From positions 1 through 33,617 of the forward strand of contig PABK01000028.1 in assembly GCA_002699145.1 (NCBI GenBank): DNA of 33,617 nt, in the 5' to 3' direction. The stretch is from Halioglobus sp. Lineage in GTDB: Bacteria; Pseudomonadota; Gammaproteobacteria; Pseudomonadales; Halieaceae. Below, in pieces: positions 3,379 through 33,617 of the stretch. Made by a program: the position numbers and the translations under genes. Each line of letters starts with the position of its first letter. Position 1 is the stretch's first letter. Under the pieces are notes generated by a model, which saw nothing but the letters and a program-made list of their open reading frames with translations, did not search any database and had not been told where the DNA came from.

Positions 3379-4923
<1,545 letters not shown>

Positions 4924-4957
4924 GCTCTGTTCCTCAATCGGGTGTCCTGGAGCTAAC

Positions 4958-5494
4958 TCAGGAATTCATAGCCTCGGCGAGCTTGTTCAGCCTGCCGCGC
5001 ACGCTGCCGTCGATCACCGTATCGCCGGCACGGATTAAAACGCCGCCCAGGAGGTCCCGGTCGGTCGATGTACTCATTTTCACTTCGCGTTCCAGCTTGC
5101 GACCCAGCAACTCGGCCAGGCGGGAAGTCACGGCCTCGGACAGGTCGAAGGCGGAGATGACCTCGACATCCACCGACTTTTCCAGGTTGGCCTTGAACAG
5201 CTCGAACTGGCGCCGGATTTCCGGCAGCAGCGCAATGCGCTTGTTGTCGGCGAGGATGCTGACGAAATTTTTCACCTGTGCGGAGGTCGCGTCGCCGCAC
5301 ACCTCGTTCAGGGTCGCGGCCTGTTGTTCGCTGGTCAGCGACGGGCTGTCCAGCGCGGCGGCCATGCGCTCGTCCGCGGCGACGGCCGCAGCCGTCGCCA
5401 GTTCGCCGGCCCACTGCTCCAGGGCGCCGCCCTGGCGTGCGTACTCGAAGGCGGCCCTGGCGTAGGGTCTGGCCAGTGTGCTCAGTTCAGCCAT
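4958..5494 (-). CDS. atpH: F1Fo ATP synthase delta subunit
   Basis: Delta subunit, the peripheral-stalk cap joining F1 to subunit b. The 178 residues match the family. The N-terminal helical domain begins with the typical [13 protein letters not shown]. The C-terminal part has the conserved stretch around [29 protein letters not shown], here split over residues 128-156. The ATG at 5494 lies 12 bp after the atpF stop, a normal operon spacing. Confidence 0.98.
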
Positions 5495-5506
5495 AGCGTC
5501 CTTCCG

Positions 5507-5977
5507 TTACAGCTCGGCGGCGAGCTTTTCAACCAGCTCGCCGTGCGCCTGCTGGTCGATCGCGGCACCGAGTACCTTTTCCGCCCCGGCCAGGGACAGC
5601 GCGGCGACCTGGCTGCGCAGCGCCTCGCGCGCGCGGTTGGTCTCCTGCTCGATTTCCGCCTGCGCGGAAGCTTTCACGCGGTCGGCTTCGACCAGCGCGG
5701 CTTCCTTGGCTTCCTCGATCAACTGGTTGGCGCGCTTGTTGGCGGCGTCGATGATGCCGGCCGCCTCCTCCTTGGCTTCCTTGAGGCGCTCGACCGCCTT
5801 TTCCTGGGCGAGCTCAAGGTCGTGGCTGGCGCGATCCGCCGCGGCCAGGCCGTCCGCGATCTTCTCCTCGCGTTCCTTCATGGCGGCCAGGATCGGCGGC
5901 CACACGTACTTCATACAGAACACGACGAAGCAGACAAAAGCGACCATTTGCCCGATAAGCGTAAGATTTAGGTTCAC
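5507..5977 (-). CDS. atpF: F1Fo ATP synthase subunit b
   Basis: Membrane-anchored peripheral stalk subunit b, 156 residues, the same length as in Escherichia coli. One N-terminal membrane helix (about residues 5-26) is followed by a long charged coiled coil rich in Ala, Glu, Lys and Arg. It starts with GTG at 5977, supported by a strong GAGGAG about 7 bases upstream. It lies 63 bp after atpE, and that gap holds a strong hairpin. There is a single b-type gene and no b-prime, as expected for this lineage. Confidence 0.98.
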
Positions 5978-6003
5978 GCCTTGCTCCTCATTGGTTACTT
6001 ACG

Positions 6004-6022
6004 GGCCGCGGTAACCGCGGCC
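6004..6022 (-). promoter_or_regulatory. Intercistronic hairpin between atpE and atpF
   Basis: A perfect 9-bp GC-rich palindrome: GGCCGCGGT at 6004-6012 pairs with ACCGCGGCC at 6014-6022 around one base, or as 8 bp with a 3-nt loop. It lies 18 bp past the atpE stop on the transcript and has no T-run, so it is not a standard terminator. Its place after the subunit needed in most copies suggests a role as an mRNA 3'-end stabiliser or partial attenuator (inference). Confidence 0.6.
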
Positions 6023-6040
6023 GTGGCGTCGACGCTGTCG

Positions 6041-6280
<240 letters not shown>

Positions 6281-6310
6281 CTAAGTGAAAAGAACCGAAG
6301 TGACGGTCGA

Positions 6311-7195
<885 letters not shown>

Positions 7196-10486: not shown

Positions 10487-12371
10487 GCGGCGCGGATTCG
10501 GCCAGCGCGCCGCGCTTTTTCAGGTAGATGAGCAGCAGCGAGATCGCCGCCGGGGTGACCCCGGGAATACGGCTGGCGCGCGCCAGCGTCTGCGGGCGCG
10601 CCTGGGCCAGTTTCTGCCGCACCTCGTTGGACAGGCCGTCGACCGCGTCGTAGTCGAGGTCCGCCGGCAGCGGGGTGTTCTCGTGCCGGCGCAGGCGCTC
10701 GATCTCCTCCTGCTGGCGATCGATGTAGCCGGCGTAGCGCGCCTGAATCTCCACCTGTGCGGCGGCCTGCTCGTCGGCGCAACCGTCGCCGGTAGCCGCG
10801 GCCAGGTCCGCGTAACTGAGCTGCGGCCGCTTGAGCAGGTCGGCCAGTGCGTACTCGCGGCCCAGGGGGCCGTCCAGCTTCTCGGCCAGGGCCGCCGCGG
10901 CCGGCGTGTGCGGGTGCACGAACGTGGTCGCCAGGCGCCGCGTCTCCGCCTCGATGGCCTCGCGCTTGGCGCTGAAACGCGCCCAGCGCGCGTCGTCCAC
11001 CAGGCCCAGATCACGCCCCTTTTCAGTCAGGCGCAGATCGGCGTTGTCCTCGCGCAGCAGCAGACGGTACTCCGCGCGGGAGGTGAACATGCGGTAGGGC
11101 TCCGCGGTGCCCATGGTAATCAGGTCGTCCACCAGCACGCCGATATAGGCCTCGTCACGGCGCGGGCACCAGGGCGCCTGGTCGCGCGCGGCCAGGGCCG
11201 CGTTGAGGCCGGCCAGCAGCCCCTGGGCAGCCGCCTCCTCGTAGCCGGTAGTGCCGTTGATCTGCCCGGCGAAATACAGGCCCGGCAACGCTTTCGTTTC
11301 CAGTGAGTAGTGCAGGTCGCGCGGGTCGAAGAAATCGTACTCGATGGCGTAGCCCGGGCGCGTGATGTGGGCGTTCTCGAAACCCTCGATGCTACGCACC
11401 AGTTGCAGTTGCACATCGAAGGGCAGGCTGGTGGAGATACCGTTGGGGTACAACTCGGTGGTGTCCAGCCCTTCGGGCTCGATGAACACCTGGTGCGAGG
11501 ACTTGTCGGCGAAGCGGTGTATCTTGTCCTCGATGCTCGGGCAGTAGCGCGGGCCCACGCCCTCGATCACCCCGGAAAACAGCGGCGAGCGGTCCAGACC
11601 GCCGCGAATGATGTCGTGGGTGCGCTCGTTGGTGTAGGTCACCCAGCAGCAGCGCTGCTCCGGGTGCATCTGCGCGTTGCCCATGAAGGACATCACCGGC
11701 TCCGGGTCATCGCCCCACTGCTGTTGCAGGCCGTCGAAGTTCACGCTGCGCGCGTCGATGCGCGGCGGCGTGCCGGTTTTCAGGCGTTCCACGCGAAAAG
11801 GCAGTTCGCGCAGGCGCTGCGCCAGGGCGATGGACGGCGGGTCGCCGGCGCGGCCGCCGGCGCTGTTGTCCAGGCCGATGTGCATCTTGCCGCCGAGGAA
11901 AGTGCCGGTGGTGAGCACTACCCGGGGTGCGCGAAAGACCAGTCCCATCTGCGTGACGGCGCCGGCCACGGCGCCGTTCTCGAGCAGCAGGTCGTCCACC
12001 GGCTGCTGGAAAATCGACAGGCCGGGCTGGTGTTCCAGCACCTGGCGGATCGCGTTGCGGTACAGCACGCGGTCCGCCTGGGCGCGGGTGGCGCGCACCG
12101 CCGGCCCCTTGCGCCGGTTGAGTACGCGGAACTGGATGCCGGCGCGGTCGGTGGCCAGCCCCATGGCACCGCCCAGCGCGTCCACCTCACGCACCAGGTG
12201 ACTCTTGCCGATACCACCGATGGCCGGGTTGCAGGACATCTGGCCCAGGGTGTCGACGGAGTGGGTGAGCAGCAGGGTGCGCGCGCCCATGCGCGCGGCC
12301 GCCAGGCACGCCTCGGTGCCGGCGTGGCCGCCGCCAATCACTATCACGTCAAACTGCTGCTGGTATTCCAC
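10464..12371 (-). CDS. mnmG: tRNA uridine-5-carboxymethylaminomethyl modification enzyme MnmG (GidA)
   Basis: FAD-binding partner of MnmE that modifies wobble U34 of several tRNAs. It has 635 residues. The dinucleotide-binding motif GGGHAG is at 13-18, the family signature [15 protein letters not shown] at 45-59, and [11 protein letters not shown] and the FAD-binding [13 protein letters not shown] follow. The C-terminal helical domain that binds MnmE is present. The start is GTG at 12371 with GGGA upstream. It heads the mnmG-rsmG-parA-parB operon. Its partner mnmE lies 4.5 kb away beyond the hppA block. Confidence 0.98.
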
Positions 12372-25054: not shown

Positions 25055-27520
<2,466 letters not shown>

Positions 27521-27846
27521 GGGCTTACTGTTGGTTCGCACGCTATTTGAAAATTTCGCATGATAAATGAAAGGCGCGCAGCATATTTTTCTAAGCCAAT
27601 CAATATGTTAAAAGATGTTAACTAAATTCTGGGCAAGAATTGGGTTGGTTTTTTCGGGGTGGTCGATGTCGACCCCCTATGCCCTCGGAGCTTGTCGTCC
27701 AATCTAGATAAAAGAATGGAGGCGACGTGCTTTTGGGTTAATCTTTTGGTGTGGCGCGACCCGTTATCCTTTTGTCGTCATCGGTGATTCAAGGCCGCTG
27801 AGGGCACACTTATCATTAAACCCACTAAGGAAAGTAGGTTTATCTC
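27521..27846. other. Low-GC gap between gyrB and the helicase-nuclease gene
   Basis: 326 bp without a supportable gene. Base composition drops from the high GC of gyrB within about 20 bases of its stop, so this is the likely left junction of acquired DNA. It contains a short dyad GGTCGA-TG-TCGACC near 27660-27674. A TATCAT at 27811-27816 could be a -10 element for the next gene, but no convincing -35 precedes it. AAGGAAAGTAGG at 27827-27838 is the probable ribosome site. No tRNA, integrase or target-site duplication is visible. Confidence 0.5.
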
Positions 27847-30800
27847 ATGAGTCGCCTAAAACTCTCTTATCGAAATATTTCGACATACTCTCTGCCTGCA
27901 CAGCAGAACTCTTACCGTTTGTTCGAAAACCTTCGCCTCGGCTACGATGAGACCACAGAAGACGAAGACCATCCTATTCTTCGTGATTTGACGGTCAAGT
28001 TGGAATGCGAAGGAGGTGAGTTGCTTTCTGAAACATGGGAAATAGGTCAGATCTCACCAAGCCAATATGTTAAACTTCAAGATCGATCCCTCCGCTTTTC
28101 ACATGATTTTCTCATCAATCTATCTGATGAGATGCCTATCACATTCAGCTTTACTGTGTATGCGCAACAGAATCACAGCGCACCCCTGCTTAGCCAATCT
28201 GAAGAAATCACGGTTCTCCCAGCTAACTTCTGGGGTGGTGAGACAAGGCAGCCAGAATTACTGGCTTCTTTTGTTAAGCCAAATGGTGTCTACGTTGAGT
28301 CGCTGGTGAAACAAGTCACGGAGTTGCTTGAGGCAAATGGCCTTGGACGGCAAGCGGATGGATACCAGTCCAATACACGCGAAAAACCCTATGCAATGTC
28401 GGCGGCGCTTTGGAGCGTCATTTCAAGCCAGCGTATCTCTTACGTTTCTCCACCTCCGAGTTATGCGGAGCAAGGTCAGCTAGTTCGCCTTGCACCAGAT
28501 ATAAGCAATAGCAAAATGGGTGCTTGTCTTGACCTCTCCTTGCTCTTTGCAAGTTGCTTCGAGCTCATGGGACTTAATACCGTCGTAGCTCTAACCAACG
28601 ACCATGCTTTTGTGGGCGTATGGCTGATAGACAATATGTTTCCTCTCTTGACGAATGACGATCCCATGGAGCTGAGAAAGCGTGTCGACGCCAGGGATCT
28701 CATTCTGTTTGAGTCCACAATGGTTACGAATAGCACTGTTCCAACCTTCTTGCAGGCGTGTGACTACGCCAGAGCTCTTATCTCTGAAGACAATGAGGGA
28801 TCGTTTGTCTACGCCATTGATATTGCGCAGGCCAGAGCCCGGAAGATTAAACCTCTTGCAACTATAGAAGATCGAGCTGAGGAGATCACCTCTGACCAGA
28901 AGGACAGTTTAGAACTTCCGCCACCACCACCTCTTCCGCCAGTCAGCATGGACGAGCGAAAAGTGGACGAAACGCCTGAAACCCGGATCGATACTTGGCA
29001 GCGTAAACTCCTGGACCTGACTAAAAGGAATCCCCTCCTTTCATTCAAGGATCGATCGCAGGGTGTAAGGATTTTTTGTCCGGACATTGGCCAGATGGAG
29101 GATCAACTGGCAGACAATGCTCTCTTTACGTTCGAGTCTTCTGAGGTAAGCCCGGTTAATGACCGAGAAAGAAGCGCGGAATCGTTTCGATTGACAACGG
29201 GCGACGATATTCATGTTGAATACGCGACGAGACAGCTCGAAAAAAACATCCTGATTGCAAATATGCCCAGCAAGAAGGTAGAGACCACACTAATTAACTT
29301 GTTCAGAAAGGCCAAAAACGACCTAGAGGAAGGCGGTGCAAATACCTTATTCCTAGCTCTCGGAATGCTGTCTTGGAAGGAAACTCCACACGATGCTAAG
29401 TCTTACAAGGCACCATTAATTCTTATTCCAGTTCAACTTGAAAGAAAAAGTGCCAGGGCACCAATCAAATTAAGACAGCTGCAGGATGATGAGCCGCTAT
29501 TTAATTTAACGTTAATAGAATTTCTGAATACAGAACACGCAATAGATTTGTCGTATCTCAGAGACGAGCTGCCCGAAGATGAGTCAGGTGTTGATGTATC
29601 TCTCGTTTGGCGGAATGTTAGAGAAGCAATTGCGGAGCAGCCTGGCTTTGAGCTTGTTGAAGAGTGTGTGCTGGCATCATTTTCTTTCGCGAAGTACTTG
29701 ATGTGGAAAGATCTGAGAGATCGAATTCAAGACCTCAAGGAGAATCCATTTGTGGCTCACTTGGTCGATAAGCCACAGGAAGCCTACCAGCAAGACGCGT
29801 CCTTTATCTTGAGAGACCAACTTGATCAGAAGATTGACCCGAAAGATATTTACCTCCCACTGAATTGCGACAGCTCTCAGATGGTAGCTGTAGAAGCTAG
29901 TTCTAGGCAGCAAGACTTTGTTCTCGAGGGGCCGCCGGGTACAGGTAAGTCAGAAACAATCGCCAACATGATTGCCAATAATCTGGCCAAAAGTCGCAAG
30001 GTGCTTTTTGTTGCTGAGAAGATTGCTGCATTGCATGTGGTCTATAGACGATTGGAAAAGATACACCTTGACCCCTTTGTTCTGGAGTTGCACTCAAACA
30101 AAGCGAATAAAAAAGCTGTGTTAGACCAATTACGTAGGTCGGCTGACAAGCGGAGTGAAAAGAGCTCGGATGAATGGCTTGTCGCAGCTAATGACTTACG
30201 TACCAAGAGAGACAGACTCAATGTTTTCGTAACGGCTCTTCACGAGGATTCCGAGTTTGGAATTTCGCCGCGAGCGGCTATCGCGAGAGTTGCGGGTTAT
30301 CAGAACAGTAGGAAGGTTGAGCTCACCTGGGGTATGAGCTTGGAAGATTCCCCCGTAAGGGGTGTGCAGGGATATGAAGATTTTAAATACGTTGCCAAAG
30401 CTGCAGGAATTGCTTTCGGGGATGTTTGTAACTTAGATGCGAGCTCTTTTAAACTAGTCGATGCCATCTCTTGGTCATATTCTTGGCAGAACAGCTTTGT
30501 TGCTGCCGCGAATTCATTTATTGCTAGCGTCGAAGAGTCAGCACCCGTACTGCGGGCATTTGCTGACCATTTCAGTGTTGATCTACAGAGTCCTACATTC
30601 GCTCAGCTCAAACAGCTAGGGGCTTTGTCTGAATTAGTTGCAATCGCTTTAGAGCAGCCCATCGAATTCGCATTGGGCCCAGATGTAACGAAAAAGCTCG
30701 ATAGTCTGGGGAAGTTAGCTGAAGGAAAGTCAGCACTTGACGCTAGTCTAACGAAGATAGCTCATGGCGCATCGGCACCTCTATTGGCGAAGACGCCGGT

Positions 30801-33558
30801 AGAAGACTGGATAGTCATTTTGGAGGAGGCTCAAGAGAGCTGGTGGAAAAAGATATTCATTAAAGGAAAGCTTAACAAGCTAGCCAGGTCAGCGGGCTAC
30901 CAAAAATTTAGTGAACTCGACATTCTTTATGCACTACGGGATGCCAAGTTGCTGGTAGCGGATGTTCAAGCATTGTCTCAGGAGTTTGAAACTCACGATA
31001 TATGGAAGGGATGGGATAGTCAGGCGCCCGAACTGATGGCAACGCAAGCACAAGGTCGAAAAATTCATTCTCTAGTCAAACAGGCCATCGGTTTGGCTGA
31101 TGAACCAATGGAACTCTTGGTCGCAATAAAAGCAAAGCTAGTGGATGGACGGGAGTTTCTTGAGGTCTCAAAGCTTCATGGTGACATGCAAAAGTTTGAA
31201 GCTGCGCTACAGAAGCTCTATTCGTCGACTAGTGAAGCCACGAATATGGGTATTAATCTCGACGAATCGGTTCCTCTTGAGGCCTATCAGTCCAAACTTA
31301 GAACGATTGTGAGTCACGAAAAGCAACTCAAACCCTGGGTAGAGTGGGTTGCCGCGAAAAAGCGTTGTGAGGAACTGCGATTACAGCCACTTTGCGAAGC
31401 TTTAGAGTCAGGAGTAATTCTGAGTGAAGACGCTCAAGATCAAGCAACCACTGCGTTCTGCGCTTGGCTGGCTCCTCGTCTGATTGATGATCGCGAGCCC
31501 CTAAGAAGTTTTAAGGTTAGCGAGCACAATGCGTTGCTGGAAGAGTTCCGCCAGCTAGATGAGCAAGTTGCTGACACGACCGCAGAGTATATTTCGACGA
31601 TCCTAGCCAATAAGACGCCGGACATCAAAAGCAAAGAGCACGCTAAGACATTTGGAACTCTGGCTAGGGAGTTACAAAAGAAAACCAGGCATAAGCCAGT
31701 GCGAGCGTTGTTTGAAGATATGGGTGCTCGTTTATTGGACCTTTGCCCCTGTATGATGATGTCTCCACTGTCGGTAGCCCAGTTCCTTCCATCAGATTTC
31801 AATGCGTTCGATCTAGTTATATTCGACGAAGCTTCTCAAATGACCACCTGGGATAGTGTTGGGTCTATAGCGCGTGGCAAGAACGTCATCGTAGTTGGTG
31901 ATCCGAAGCAAATGCCCCCCACAAATTTCTTTAGTACAAGCGCGGGCTATGACGATCTGGATGAAGAGGACTTAGAGTCAATTCTCGATCAAGCACTTGC
32001 AGCGGGTCTACCGCACCTTAGATTGATGGGACACTATCGTTCGAAACACGAAACGCTCATCGCATTTTCTAACTCGAAATATTATGAGAACTCGCTTGTT
32101 ACTTACCCGTCATCCGATACAAAGCAGTCGGCGGTCACTCTCCACCGGGTAGATGGTGTTTATGCCAAAGGTAAAGGTAGAAATAACCCCATAGAGGCTA
32201 AGGCGGTAGTTGAAGAAGTAGTTCGGCGACTTCGCCACCCTCGTCTCAGTGGACAGACATTAGGTATCGTCACCCTAAATAGTGATCAGCAGCGCACGAT
32301 CGAAGATCTGCTGGACAATGCGCGAAGATCATCTCCGGAGATCGAGCAGTACTTTCAGTCAGGCGAAGATTTCGACCCCGTGTTCGTTAAGAATCTCGAG
32401 TCAGTTCAGGGTGACGAACGTGATGTCATCATGTTCAGCATGGGCTACGGGCCTACGGAGCCTGGCGGCAAAACCATGTCTATGAACTTTGGCCCTCTAA
32501 ACAAATCAGGTGGAGAACGAAGGCTGAATGTTGCGATAACGCGGGCAACAACTGAAGTGGTTGTCTTTTCTAGCTTCGATTCAAGCATGATAGATCTCTC
32601 CCGAACATCCGCTACAGCGATCGAACACCTTAAACACTATTTGGAGTTCGCGGAGAAAGGGCCGATAGCTCTTGCTGAGCAAAGCACAGCGGCCCATGAT
32701 GTTGATCAGTTTGATAGCGATTTCGAACAAGCGGTGGCTTGGGCGCTTCGAGACTTGGGCTGGAAAGTTCAAACTCAAATTGGGGTCAGTAAATTCAGGG
32801 TGGATCTGGGCATAGTTCATCCCGATAGCCCTGGGCTTTATTTGGCCGGAGTTGAGTGTGATGGTGCTACGTATCATGGATCTCCTAGCGCCAGAGACAG
32901 AGATCGTACACGGCAGGCGGTGCTAGAGAATCTGGGTTGGCGGCTCGTGAGATTGTGGTCGACTGACTATTTTAGGGACCCAGAGTCCGCCATTCAGCAG
33001 ATCCACGATAGGCTGTCCGAAATACTGGCAGATGATAGATCCAGACGAGAAGAGGAAGCTTCTATTGATGTAGACATGCTAGTCGATGAACCCTCTATAT
33101 CAACGGATGGATTGGAGTTAGAGGCATATGCCGCCGCTGAAGATCGCATAGTAGATGTGGAACATGCGGAGGAAGATCAAAACACATTAGCGAACCTGTA
33201 CTTTGAGGAGAGTCACAAACCGCAGCTAATCGAGATGGCAAAGTCGATTCTTTCCGAGCGACCTTGTATCACCAAAAAGGCCCTCGCTTTGGAAATTGCT
33301 CAACGTCATGGCCTCCGCCGAACCTCTAAAAAACAGCTGGAGCATCTGGCGCCTCTGGTAGAAGCATGGGCAGGTATCCTCTCCCCAGGATTGGAAGAGT
33401 CCGTATATTGGGTCTCTCCAGATGATGTTGTTGAAGTGATTCCATGGCGCGGACTAAGCCCTTTTGGATATGAACGTGATTGGAGCGAAATAGCGAAGCC
33501 TGAGGCGATCGGATTAGCGCTGGAGGCTGTTGATTTGCACCGAAAATTGACCCACTAA
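27847..33558 (+). CDS. Giant DUF4011-type helicase-nuclease with transglutaminase-like domain; candidate anti-phage defence protein
   Basis: One intact frame of 1903 residues. In order: beta-rich N-terminus (1-130); transglutaminase/cysteine-protease-like segment with Cys227 (GACLDL) and His253 (DHAFVGVW); Pro-rich linker (about 355-366); DUF4011-type motif WQRKLLDLTKRNPLL (384-398); SF1 helicase with GPPGTGKS (695-702), DEAS (1327-1330), GDPKQ (1351-1355), HYRS (1396-1399), VQGDERD (1520-1526) and NVAITRA (1561-1567); a 550-residue helical insert between motifs Ia and II; Vsr/PD-(D/E)XK-like nuclease with Glu1627, Asp1653 and ECD (1670-1672); DUF3320-like C-terminus from about 1780. GC is far lower than in neighbours. 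From memory, a DUF4011-helicase-Vsr gene was reported as a single-gene phage defence (hhe). Homology at that level is inference. The last roughly 10 residues come from IS-like sequence. Confidence 0.85.
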   Translation: MSRLKLSYRNISTYSLPAQQNSYRLFENLRLGYDETTEDEDHPILRDLTVKLECEGGELLSETWEIGQISPSQYVKLQDRSLRFSHDFLINLSDEMPITFSFTVYAQQNHSAPLLSQSEEITVLPANFWGGETRQPELLASFVKPNGVYVESLVKQVTELLEANGLGRQADGYQSNTREKPYAMSAALWSVISSQRISYVSPPPSYAEQGQLVRLAPDISNSKMGACLDLSLLFASCFELMGLNTVVALTNDHAFVGVWLIDNMFPLLTNDDPMELRKRVDARDLILFESTMVTNSTVPTFLQACDYARALISEDNEGSFVYAIDIAQARARKIKPLATIEDRAEEITSDQKDSLELPPPPPLPPVSMDERKVDETPETRIDTWQRKLLDLTKRNPLLSFKDRSQGVRIFCPDIGQMEDQLADNALFTFESSEVSPVNDRERSAESFRLTTGDDIHVEYATRQLEKNILIANMPSKKVETTLINLFRKAKNDLEEGGANTLFLALGMLSWKETPHDAKSYKAPLILIPVQLERKSARAPIKLRQLQDDEPLFNLTLIEFLNTEHAIDLSYLRDELPEDESGVDVSLVWRNVREAIAEQPGFELVEECVLASFSFAKYLMWKDLRDRIQDLKENPFVAHLVDKPQEAYQQDASFILRDQLDQKIDPKDIYLPLNCDSSQMVAVEASSRQQDFVLEGPPGTGKSETIANMIANNLAKSRKVLFVAEKIAALHVVYRRLEKIHLDPFVLELHSNKANKKAVLDQLRRSADKRSEKSSDEWLVAANDLRTKRDRLNVFVTALHEDSEFGISPRAAIARVAGYQNSRKVELTWGMSLEDSPVRGVQGYEDFKYVAKAAGIAFGDVCNLDASSFKLVDAISWSYSWQNSFVAAANSFIASVEESAPVLRAFADHFSVDLQSPTFAQLKQLGALSELVAIALEQPIEFALGPDVTKKLDSLGKLAEGKSALDASLTKIAHGASAPLLAKTPVEDWIVILEEAQESWWKKIFIKGKLNKLARSAGYQKFSELDILYALRDAKLLVADVQALSQEFETHDIWKGWDSQAPELMATQAQGRKIHSLVKQAIGLADEPMELLVAIKAKLVDGREFLEVSKLHGDMQKFEAALQKLYSSTSEATNMGINLDESVPLEAYQSKLRTIVSHEKQLKPWVEWVAAKKRCEELRLQPLCEALESGVILSEDAQDQATTAFCAWLAPRLIDDREPLRSFKVSEHNALLEEFRQLDEQVADTTAEYISTILANKTPDIKSKEHAKTFGTLARELQKKTRHKPVRALFEDMGARLLDLCPCMMMSPLSVAQFLPSDFNAFDLVIFDEASQMTTWDSVGSIARGKNVIVVGDPKQMPPTNFFSTSAGYDDLDEEDLESILDQALAAGLPHLRLMGHYRSKHETLIAFSNSKYYENSLVTYPSSDTKQSAVTLHRVDGVYAKGKGRNNPIEAKAVVEEVVRRLRHPRLSGQTLGIVTLNSDQQRTIEDLLDNARRSSPEIEQYFQSGEDFDPVFVKNLESVQGDERDVIMFSMGYGPTEPGGKTMSMNFGPLNKSGGERRLNVAITRATTEVVVFSSFDSSMIDLSRTSATAIEHLKHYLEFAEKGPIALAEQSTAAHDVDQFDSDFEQAVAWALRDLGWKVQTQIGVSKFRVDLGIVHPDSPGLYLAGVECDGATYHGSPSARDRDRTRQAVLENLGWRLVRLWSTDYFRDPESAIQQIHDRLSEILADDRSRREEEASIDVDMLVDEPSISTDGLELEAYAAAEDRIVDVEHAEEDQNTLANLYFEESHKPQLIEMAKSILSERPCITKKALALEIAQRHGLRRTSKKQLEHLAPLVEAWAGILSPGLEESVYWVSPDDVVEVIPWRGLSPFGYERDWSEIAKPEAIGLALEAVDLHRKLTH

Positions 33559-33617
33559 CCCCCCAGATTTGCATCGAATTTTGACCCACGTATAACCCCT
33601 CCCTGCACAAATAATGA
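33528..33617. mobile_element. Probable terminus of an IS21-like insertion sequence (runs off the window)
   Basis: Starting with TG at 33528, two 24-bp direct repeats lie 34 bp apart: 33532-33555 and 33566-33589, identical at 21 of 24 positions. Both start GATTTGCA and end TTGACCCAC. Multiple short repeats of this kind just inside a 5'-TG end are characteristic of IS21-family termini. No transposase is inside the window. The stop codon of the upstream giant gene (33556-33558) lies within this segment. Confidence 0.55.

Follow-up and report, generated by a model that had tools for sequence, protein, structure and literature searches.

The locus and its features

The window analysed here, that is, the whole stretch of 33,617 bases, is the whole of contig C44, one of 61 in a draft genome of 5.2 Mb. 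Near its right end lies a real, uninterrupted ORF of 1903 codons at 27847-33558 on the plus strand, open throughout as an earlier note on this DNA had described it, and Pfam identifies dnaN, a recF-like gene and gyrB upstream of it. The low G+C content claimed for the gene is borne out, with values per kilobase of 0.457-0.504 (28001 to 33000) compared with 0.587-0.706 (1 to 27000). A scan of 27400-28000 returned a single promoter-like site, lying on the minus strand, and a single terminator-like site past gyrB, to which we give no weight because shuffled sequence gave means of 0.4 and 0.9, respectively. The features are as follows, all on the plus strand.

25100-27520, +: gyrB, conserved left neighbour of the insertion site (Pfam; present in 17 of 18 genus genomes, own included)
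27847-33558, +: ProA-family ORF, final codons IS-derived (NF058533, 1830.6 bits; PADLOC PDC-S37, 1127.5 bits)
27847-28836, +: N-terminal region, a beta-rich part and then a probable transglutaminase-like part, residues about 1-330 (AlphaFold2, Foldseek, conservation)
29005-29526, +: DUF4011, residues 387-560 (Pfam PF13195, 148.2 bits)
29929-32547, +: SF1 helicase core with a long insert (Pfam AAA_11, AAA_12; motifs aligned in relatives)
29929-29952, +: helicase Walker A, GPPGTGKS (alignment to relatives)
31822-31839, +: helicase DEAS (alignment to relatives)
31897-31920, +: helicase GDPKQ (alignment to relatives)
32032, +: helicase HYRSK (alignment to relatives)
32404, +: helicase VQGDERD (alignment to relatives)
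32518-32547, +: helicase RRLNVAITRA (alignment to relatives)
32722-33015, +: Vsr-like REase MTES_1575, residues 1626-1723 (Pfam PF18741, 119.6 bits)
33208-33411, +: winged-helix-like region, approximate (alignment transfer from the L022 model)
33517-33527, +: 11-base direct repeat, left of the IS (repeated on contig C13 just past the IS right end)
33528-33617, +: left end of a 2466-base IS21-family element (9 genome copies of this end)

The ORF matches the NCBIfam equivalog model NF058533, "anti-phage protein ProA", at 1830.6 bits against a cut-off of 1500, and the match spans model positions 5-1882 of 1903. An uninterrupted relative, L022, reaches 1825.7 bits against the same model, nearly equal to the window ORF.

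Domain architecture and predicted structure

The DUF4011 and MTES_1575 matches, together with AAA_11 (60.8 bits) and AAA_12 (56.9 bits), all lie above the Pfam cut-offs, in agreement with the domains proposed from motifs in the earlier note. DUF3320, proposed alongside them as a check, did not match the window protein, and it matched 4 of 18 C-terminal fragments of the ProA family. Helicase motifs and nuclease residues are strongly conserved in the alignment of relatives, in which a truncated relative (L029) lacks everything past the Walker A and DUF4011-side motifs and a distant one (L007) is unaligned at Walker A. In its own locus (L029:9956-15663) the former is split between two neighbouring ORFs (1187 and 714 codons), which may reflect a frameshift or a sequencing error. 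Another relative (L030:9977-15763) carries DAAS instead of DEAS in motif II and GNERD in motif V and, like L084, Gln instead of His253; judging from these changes, the gene, which in L030 lies near a type I restriction-PrrC locus, looks as if it were decaying or inactive. One further relative, close to the gammaproteobacterial ones, comes from a MAG titled Helicobacter pylori PMSS1 (L031), a title that is probably wrong.

The N-terminal region was modelled with AlphaFold2 (residues 1-390, 20 sequences; pLDDT 85.4, pTM 0.82). Foldseek returned no match for this model at E 0.001 or better; the best was transglutaminase 2 (E 1.5e-3, with a TM-score of only 0.18), in a list that also contained RhoGDI, fibronectin and many other beta folds. 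Candidate triad residues are Cys227, His253 and Asp271/Asp272, of which Cys227 is invariant in 20 of 20 alignment rows and the others are conserved at 90% or above. A second alignment (23 rows) has Gln for His253 in two rows, L030 and L084, which by their coordinates look like one genome, and a gap in one row. Among 20 members searched with transglutaminase Pfam models, DUF553 matched two (best E 0.015) and Transglut_core two (best E 0.14), all of them weak matches at E 0.015-0.15, and the window's own N-terminal row matched none of these models. No HEPN domain was matched in the window protein by the Pfam search or in the N-terminal members. Taken as a structural prediction, the N-terminal region is probably transglutaminase-like, a feature that the earlier note overlooked.

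Modelling of the L022 protein from residue 1605 on, from 18 sequences (pLDDT 80.6, pTM 0.48), gave a nuclease and a linker of low confidence, followed by a winged-helix-like part and, at the end, a three-helix unit; the winged-helix-like part, model residues 181-248, runs helix-helix-helix-strand-strand. Fold matches for this model were weak, none reaching E 0.001, and the top rows were a mitochondrial ribosome chain and Roquin ROQ domains. Matches to the endonucleases 3hrl and 3r3p, the latter the I-Bth0305I catalytic domain, had a probability of 1.00 at E 0.048-0.13.

An IS21-family element forms the end of the gene

From position 33528 on, the ORF runs within the left end of an insertion sequence, which encodes residues 1895-1903 and the stop. 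The earlier note had placed the gene between core origin genes and an IS-like end; the origin genes are indeed upstream, but the IS is within the gene instead of beside it. The 90-base end was found at nine places in the genome, window included, and complete copies measured 2466 bases in all four inspected. We assign the element to the IS21 family because the copy on contig C13 encodes IstB and a Mu-type transposase (Mu-transpos_C_2). The contig end downstream of the ORF is an assembly break at a repeat: the gene's surroundings do leave the window here, as had been remarked, and they continue on C13, where the tail and the downstream genes are found. An ORF in a draft genome can thus look complete though its end belongs to a transposable element.

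With the last 100 residues of L022 as query, the lost tail was located in the same genome at C13:54371-54496, minus strand (E 2.1e-9, 50% identity). An IS right end lies directly next to it, and the 11 bases that come first beyond that IS are identical to the 11 bases ahead of the IS in the window. Another left-right pair of IS ends, on C28 and C22, shows a 9-base repeat. No direct repeat of its own was found for any of the three complete copies with readable flanks (C4, C11 and C13), so that the C13 copy, as assembled, joins flanks that do not stem from one insertion; its left flank matches none of the eight right-end flanks seen, and the two ProA flanks match each other. In the C13 stretch from 46000 to 62000 (L067), at about position 10960, this IS lies between the ProA tail and an unrelated flank with a DUF445 gene. 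Either the IS has mediated a rearrangement here or the assembly is misjoined. The lack of repeats in the three copies shows that rearrangements or misassemblies are frequent around this element across the genome, which makes the order of events at the ProA gene a matter of inference.

By comparison with relatives, about 40 C-terminal residues are missing from the window ORF. Past the junction column, each of the 16 relatives longer than 1900 residues, L030 and L084 (which look like one genome) included, continues for 37 to 45 residues, a count that leaves out six shorter ones (L036, L080, L032, L079, L081 and L029). Among the shorter ones, L036 and L080 extend 215 and 238 residues beyond the nuclease, L032 has a stop 22 residues past it and lacks the entire C-terminal part, L079 ends 8 residues past it with a stop within its frame, and L081 runs off the end of its locus. 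The lost part is predicted to be the last two helices of the terminal three-helix unit of L022 (pLDDT >90); the insertion removes the end of this unit and no catalytic motif.

The tail could be dispensable, with the IS providing a harmless new end and the gene defending the cell as it stands. Such full activity would agree with an ORF that is open to the IS-borne stop, with retained catalytic motifs and with a ProA score almost equal to that of L022; L032 does without the whole C-terminal part, but its contig has low coverage and this gene, too, could be broken. A tail present in all 16 relatives above 1900 residues, and folded with high confidence into the three-helix unit of the L022 model, speaks against it, and we consider full activity possible but rather unlikely. 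Impairment of the window copy by the tail loss is instead likely, although not certain. The suggestion that the gene defends its host is accordingly kept for the family assignment and weakened for present defence by this copy; even so, a truncated copy that exceeds the cut-off with all motifs in place may still be working. A natural tail-less ProA also raises the question of how important the C-terminal three-helix unit is.

A ProA relative on a Klebsiella pneumoniae plasmid (L105, CP094888.1, locus 4274-6525) is likewise broken by an IS21-family element (istA, istB, ISEc10). The record CP095469.1, equal in length to CP094888.1, has the same features in the list of matches. After the window copy, this is the second IS21-family case in the ProA family.

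Genomic position and distribution

On C13 the tail is followed by LysR, glyoxalase, Usp and SulP-type genes, one unassigned ORF, rmuC and glyS; the G+C content is 0.52 in the region of LysR and the tail and reaches 0.65-0.70 at rmuC-glyS. A search for gyrB was successful in 16 of 17 other genus members, and we examined seven of these congeners. In all seven, homologues of this rmuC and glyS come after gyrB, no ProA lies between, and the gyrB-rmuC gap contains no ORF of at least 70 codons, or small ORFs, or other ORFs. In six of the seven, nothing in the genome matches ProA at E 0.001; in the seventh (G001) ProA is on contig C14 and gyrB on C34. Because the congeners show gyrB-rmuC-glyS without ProA, we conclude that the ProA gene and its neighbours were inserted between gyrB and rmuC, which makes this interval an insertion site of a known one-gene defence family in a Halioglobus-like lineage. 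No tRNA that could serve as insertion target was found in the window or in the C13 stretch.

Counting the own genome each time, the ProA cut-off was passed in 4 of 96 related genomes and in 7 of 369 genomes of the class, and within the genus only two of 18 genomes, the own one and G001, hold a strong match. Relatives were found in 82 of 72,556 plasmid records at E <=1e-100, all below 60% identity; 62 of the 82 match over at least 80% of the query, and they count as relatives by similarity, not by ProA-model score. Across 15 relatives, 211 neighbour ORFs (at least 80 residues, flanks up to 10 kb, several much shorter) yielded no cluster present in more than two of the 15 loci, in line with the absence of partner genes upstream that the earlier note had remarked. 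A one-gene system is likely because relatives are patchy, some are on plasmids, and no partner recurs.

Two of the 15 loci, picked by eye and hence a selected sample and not an enrichment test, adjoin other defence genes: type I restriction and PrrC in L030, and Azaca zacABC in L031. PADLOC models matched eight of nine defence-like neighbours scanned in these two, and none matched the C13 LysR.

Could the gene instead encode a helicase-nuclease for DNA repair or maintenance? Its helicase core resembles IGHMBP2/UPF1 proteins and it sits beside replication genes. DUF4011 proteins can, moreover, be core genes: in all P. aeruginosa isolates of one study, such a protein borders a defence hotspot (PMC10250203). 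But no ProA occupies this position in the seven congeners examined, relatives are patchy and partly plasmid-borne, and the G+C content is low, which leaves a repair function improbable. The housekeeping distribution that would have spoken against defence was looked for and rejected, the genus and class searches both being patchy (2/18 strong; 7/369 over the cut-off).

Interpretation and proposed mechanism

Our preferred reading, which we hold to be highly probable, is that the ORF is a horizontally acquired member of the ProA one-gene anti-phage family, inserted between gyrB and rmuC in a Halioglobus-like gammaproteobacterium, and that an IS21-family element later inserted into its last codons.

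In intact members of the family, DUF4011 and the winged-helix and three-helix parts at the C-terminus would guide the UPF1/IGHMBP2-like SF1 helicase as it loads onto foreign DNA or onto replication intermediates. The Vsr-like nuclease of the same chain would then cut the foreign DNA without a methylation partner, DNA degradation being the presumed defence step, and the N-terminal transglutaminase-like part could act as a protease or regulator. As for the trigger, a single chain that unites helicase and nuclease and comes with no methyltransferase suggests that ProA may recognise a DNA state or structure rather than methylation. A bolder version, which we put forward as speculation with little chance of being right, would make ProA a three-enzyme protein (transglutaminase-like protease, helicase and nuclease) with the three-helix unit as sensor or brake, and would have IS21-family insertions, seen in ProA genes at the end here and in the Klebsiella plasmid copy, selected to switch off a costly defence.

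Relation to known defence systems

The earlier note had placed the gene in the DUF4011-helicase-Vsr class of one-gene anti-phage proteins, under the name hhe and as a candidate system. The class is upheld by the ProA score, by the patchy distribution in the genus and by the lack of a recurring partner among the 211 neighbour ORFs, as far as sequence comparison can tell; the name is not. Hhe shares the overall domain class and ranks second both in NCBIfam (equivalog NF042953) and in PADLOC (563.1 bits), but with 789.6 bits against a cut-off of 2000 for the former, with the ProA cut-off exceeded, and with the same verdict for four relatives, membership was rejected on score and an Hhe identity is scarcely credible.

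The defence-database search suggested by the earlier note gave PDC-S37 as the best PADLOC model (1127.5 bits, residues 378-1841), listed without a curated cut-off. PDC-S37 is a candidate label, and the name occurs in no paper of the literature collection searched. A sequence search of the Protein Data Bank gave 12 sequences at E <=0.01, all of them helicase cores, SMUBP-2, SEN1 and UPF1 among them. No publication on ProA itself was among the literature matches listed, so the term "anti-phage" is taken from the name of the NCBIfam model. Prometheus (DefenseFinder) is named as a defence system in PMC12629846, PMC12447246, PMC13356809, PMC12846349 and PMC12390725, whose accessible passages do not tie it to DUF4011, and in PMC11706625 the word denotes an instrument; ProA as short for Prometheus is unproven. 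Judged by its sequence, the ORF is an ordinary member of an already named one-gene defence family and nothing new in kind, so that the idea of a new candidate system is given up.

Among described systems, giant HEPN-transglutaminase-SF1 helicase-Vsr-wHTH proteins without modification genes had a defence role proposed for them in 2013 (PMC3710099). The window protein would resemble these in its transglutaminase-like part, SF1 helicase, Vsr-type nuclease, wHTH and lack of modification genes, and differs in the HEPN domain, theirs having no counterpart among its matches. Hhe, which PMC12278908 lists among helicase defence systems, is alike in combining DUF4011, an SF1 helicase and a nuclease, and differs by the wide margin between the window protein's score and the Hhe cut-off. 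The likeness to PDC-S37 lies in its being the best PADLOC model. From other ProA proteins the window copy differs in that its natural C-terminus is replaced by the IS, whereas L022 and L031 reach model positions 1903 and 1899; an own C-terminal end is a criterion of ours and not of the model, its lack points to a probably damaged copy, and membership was decided by the curated score. By that score the closest likeness is to ProA, whose model the window protein matches above the curated cut-off over nearly its whole length.
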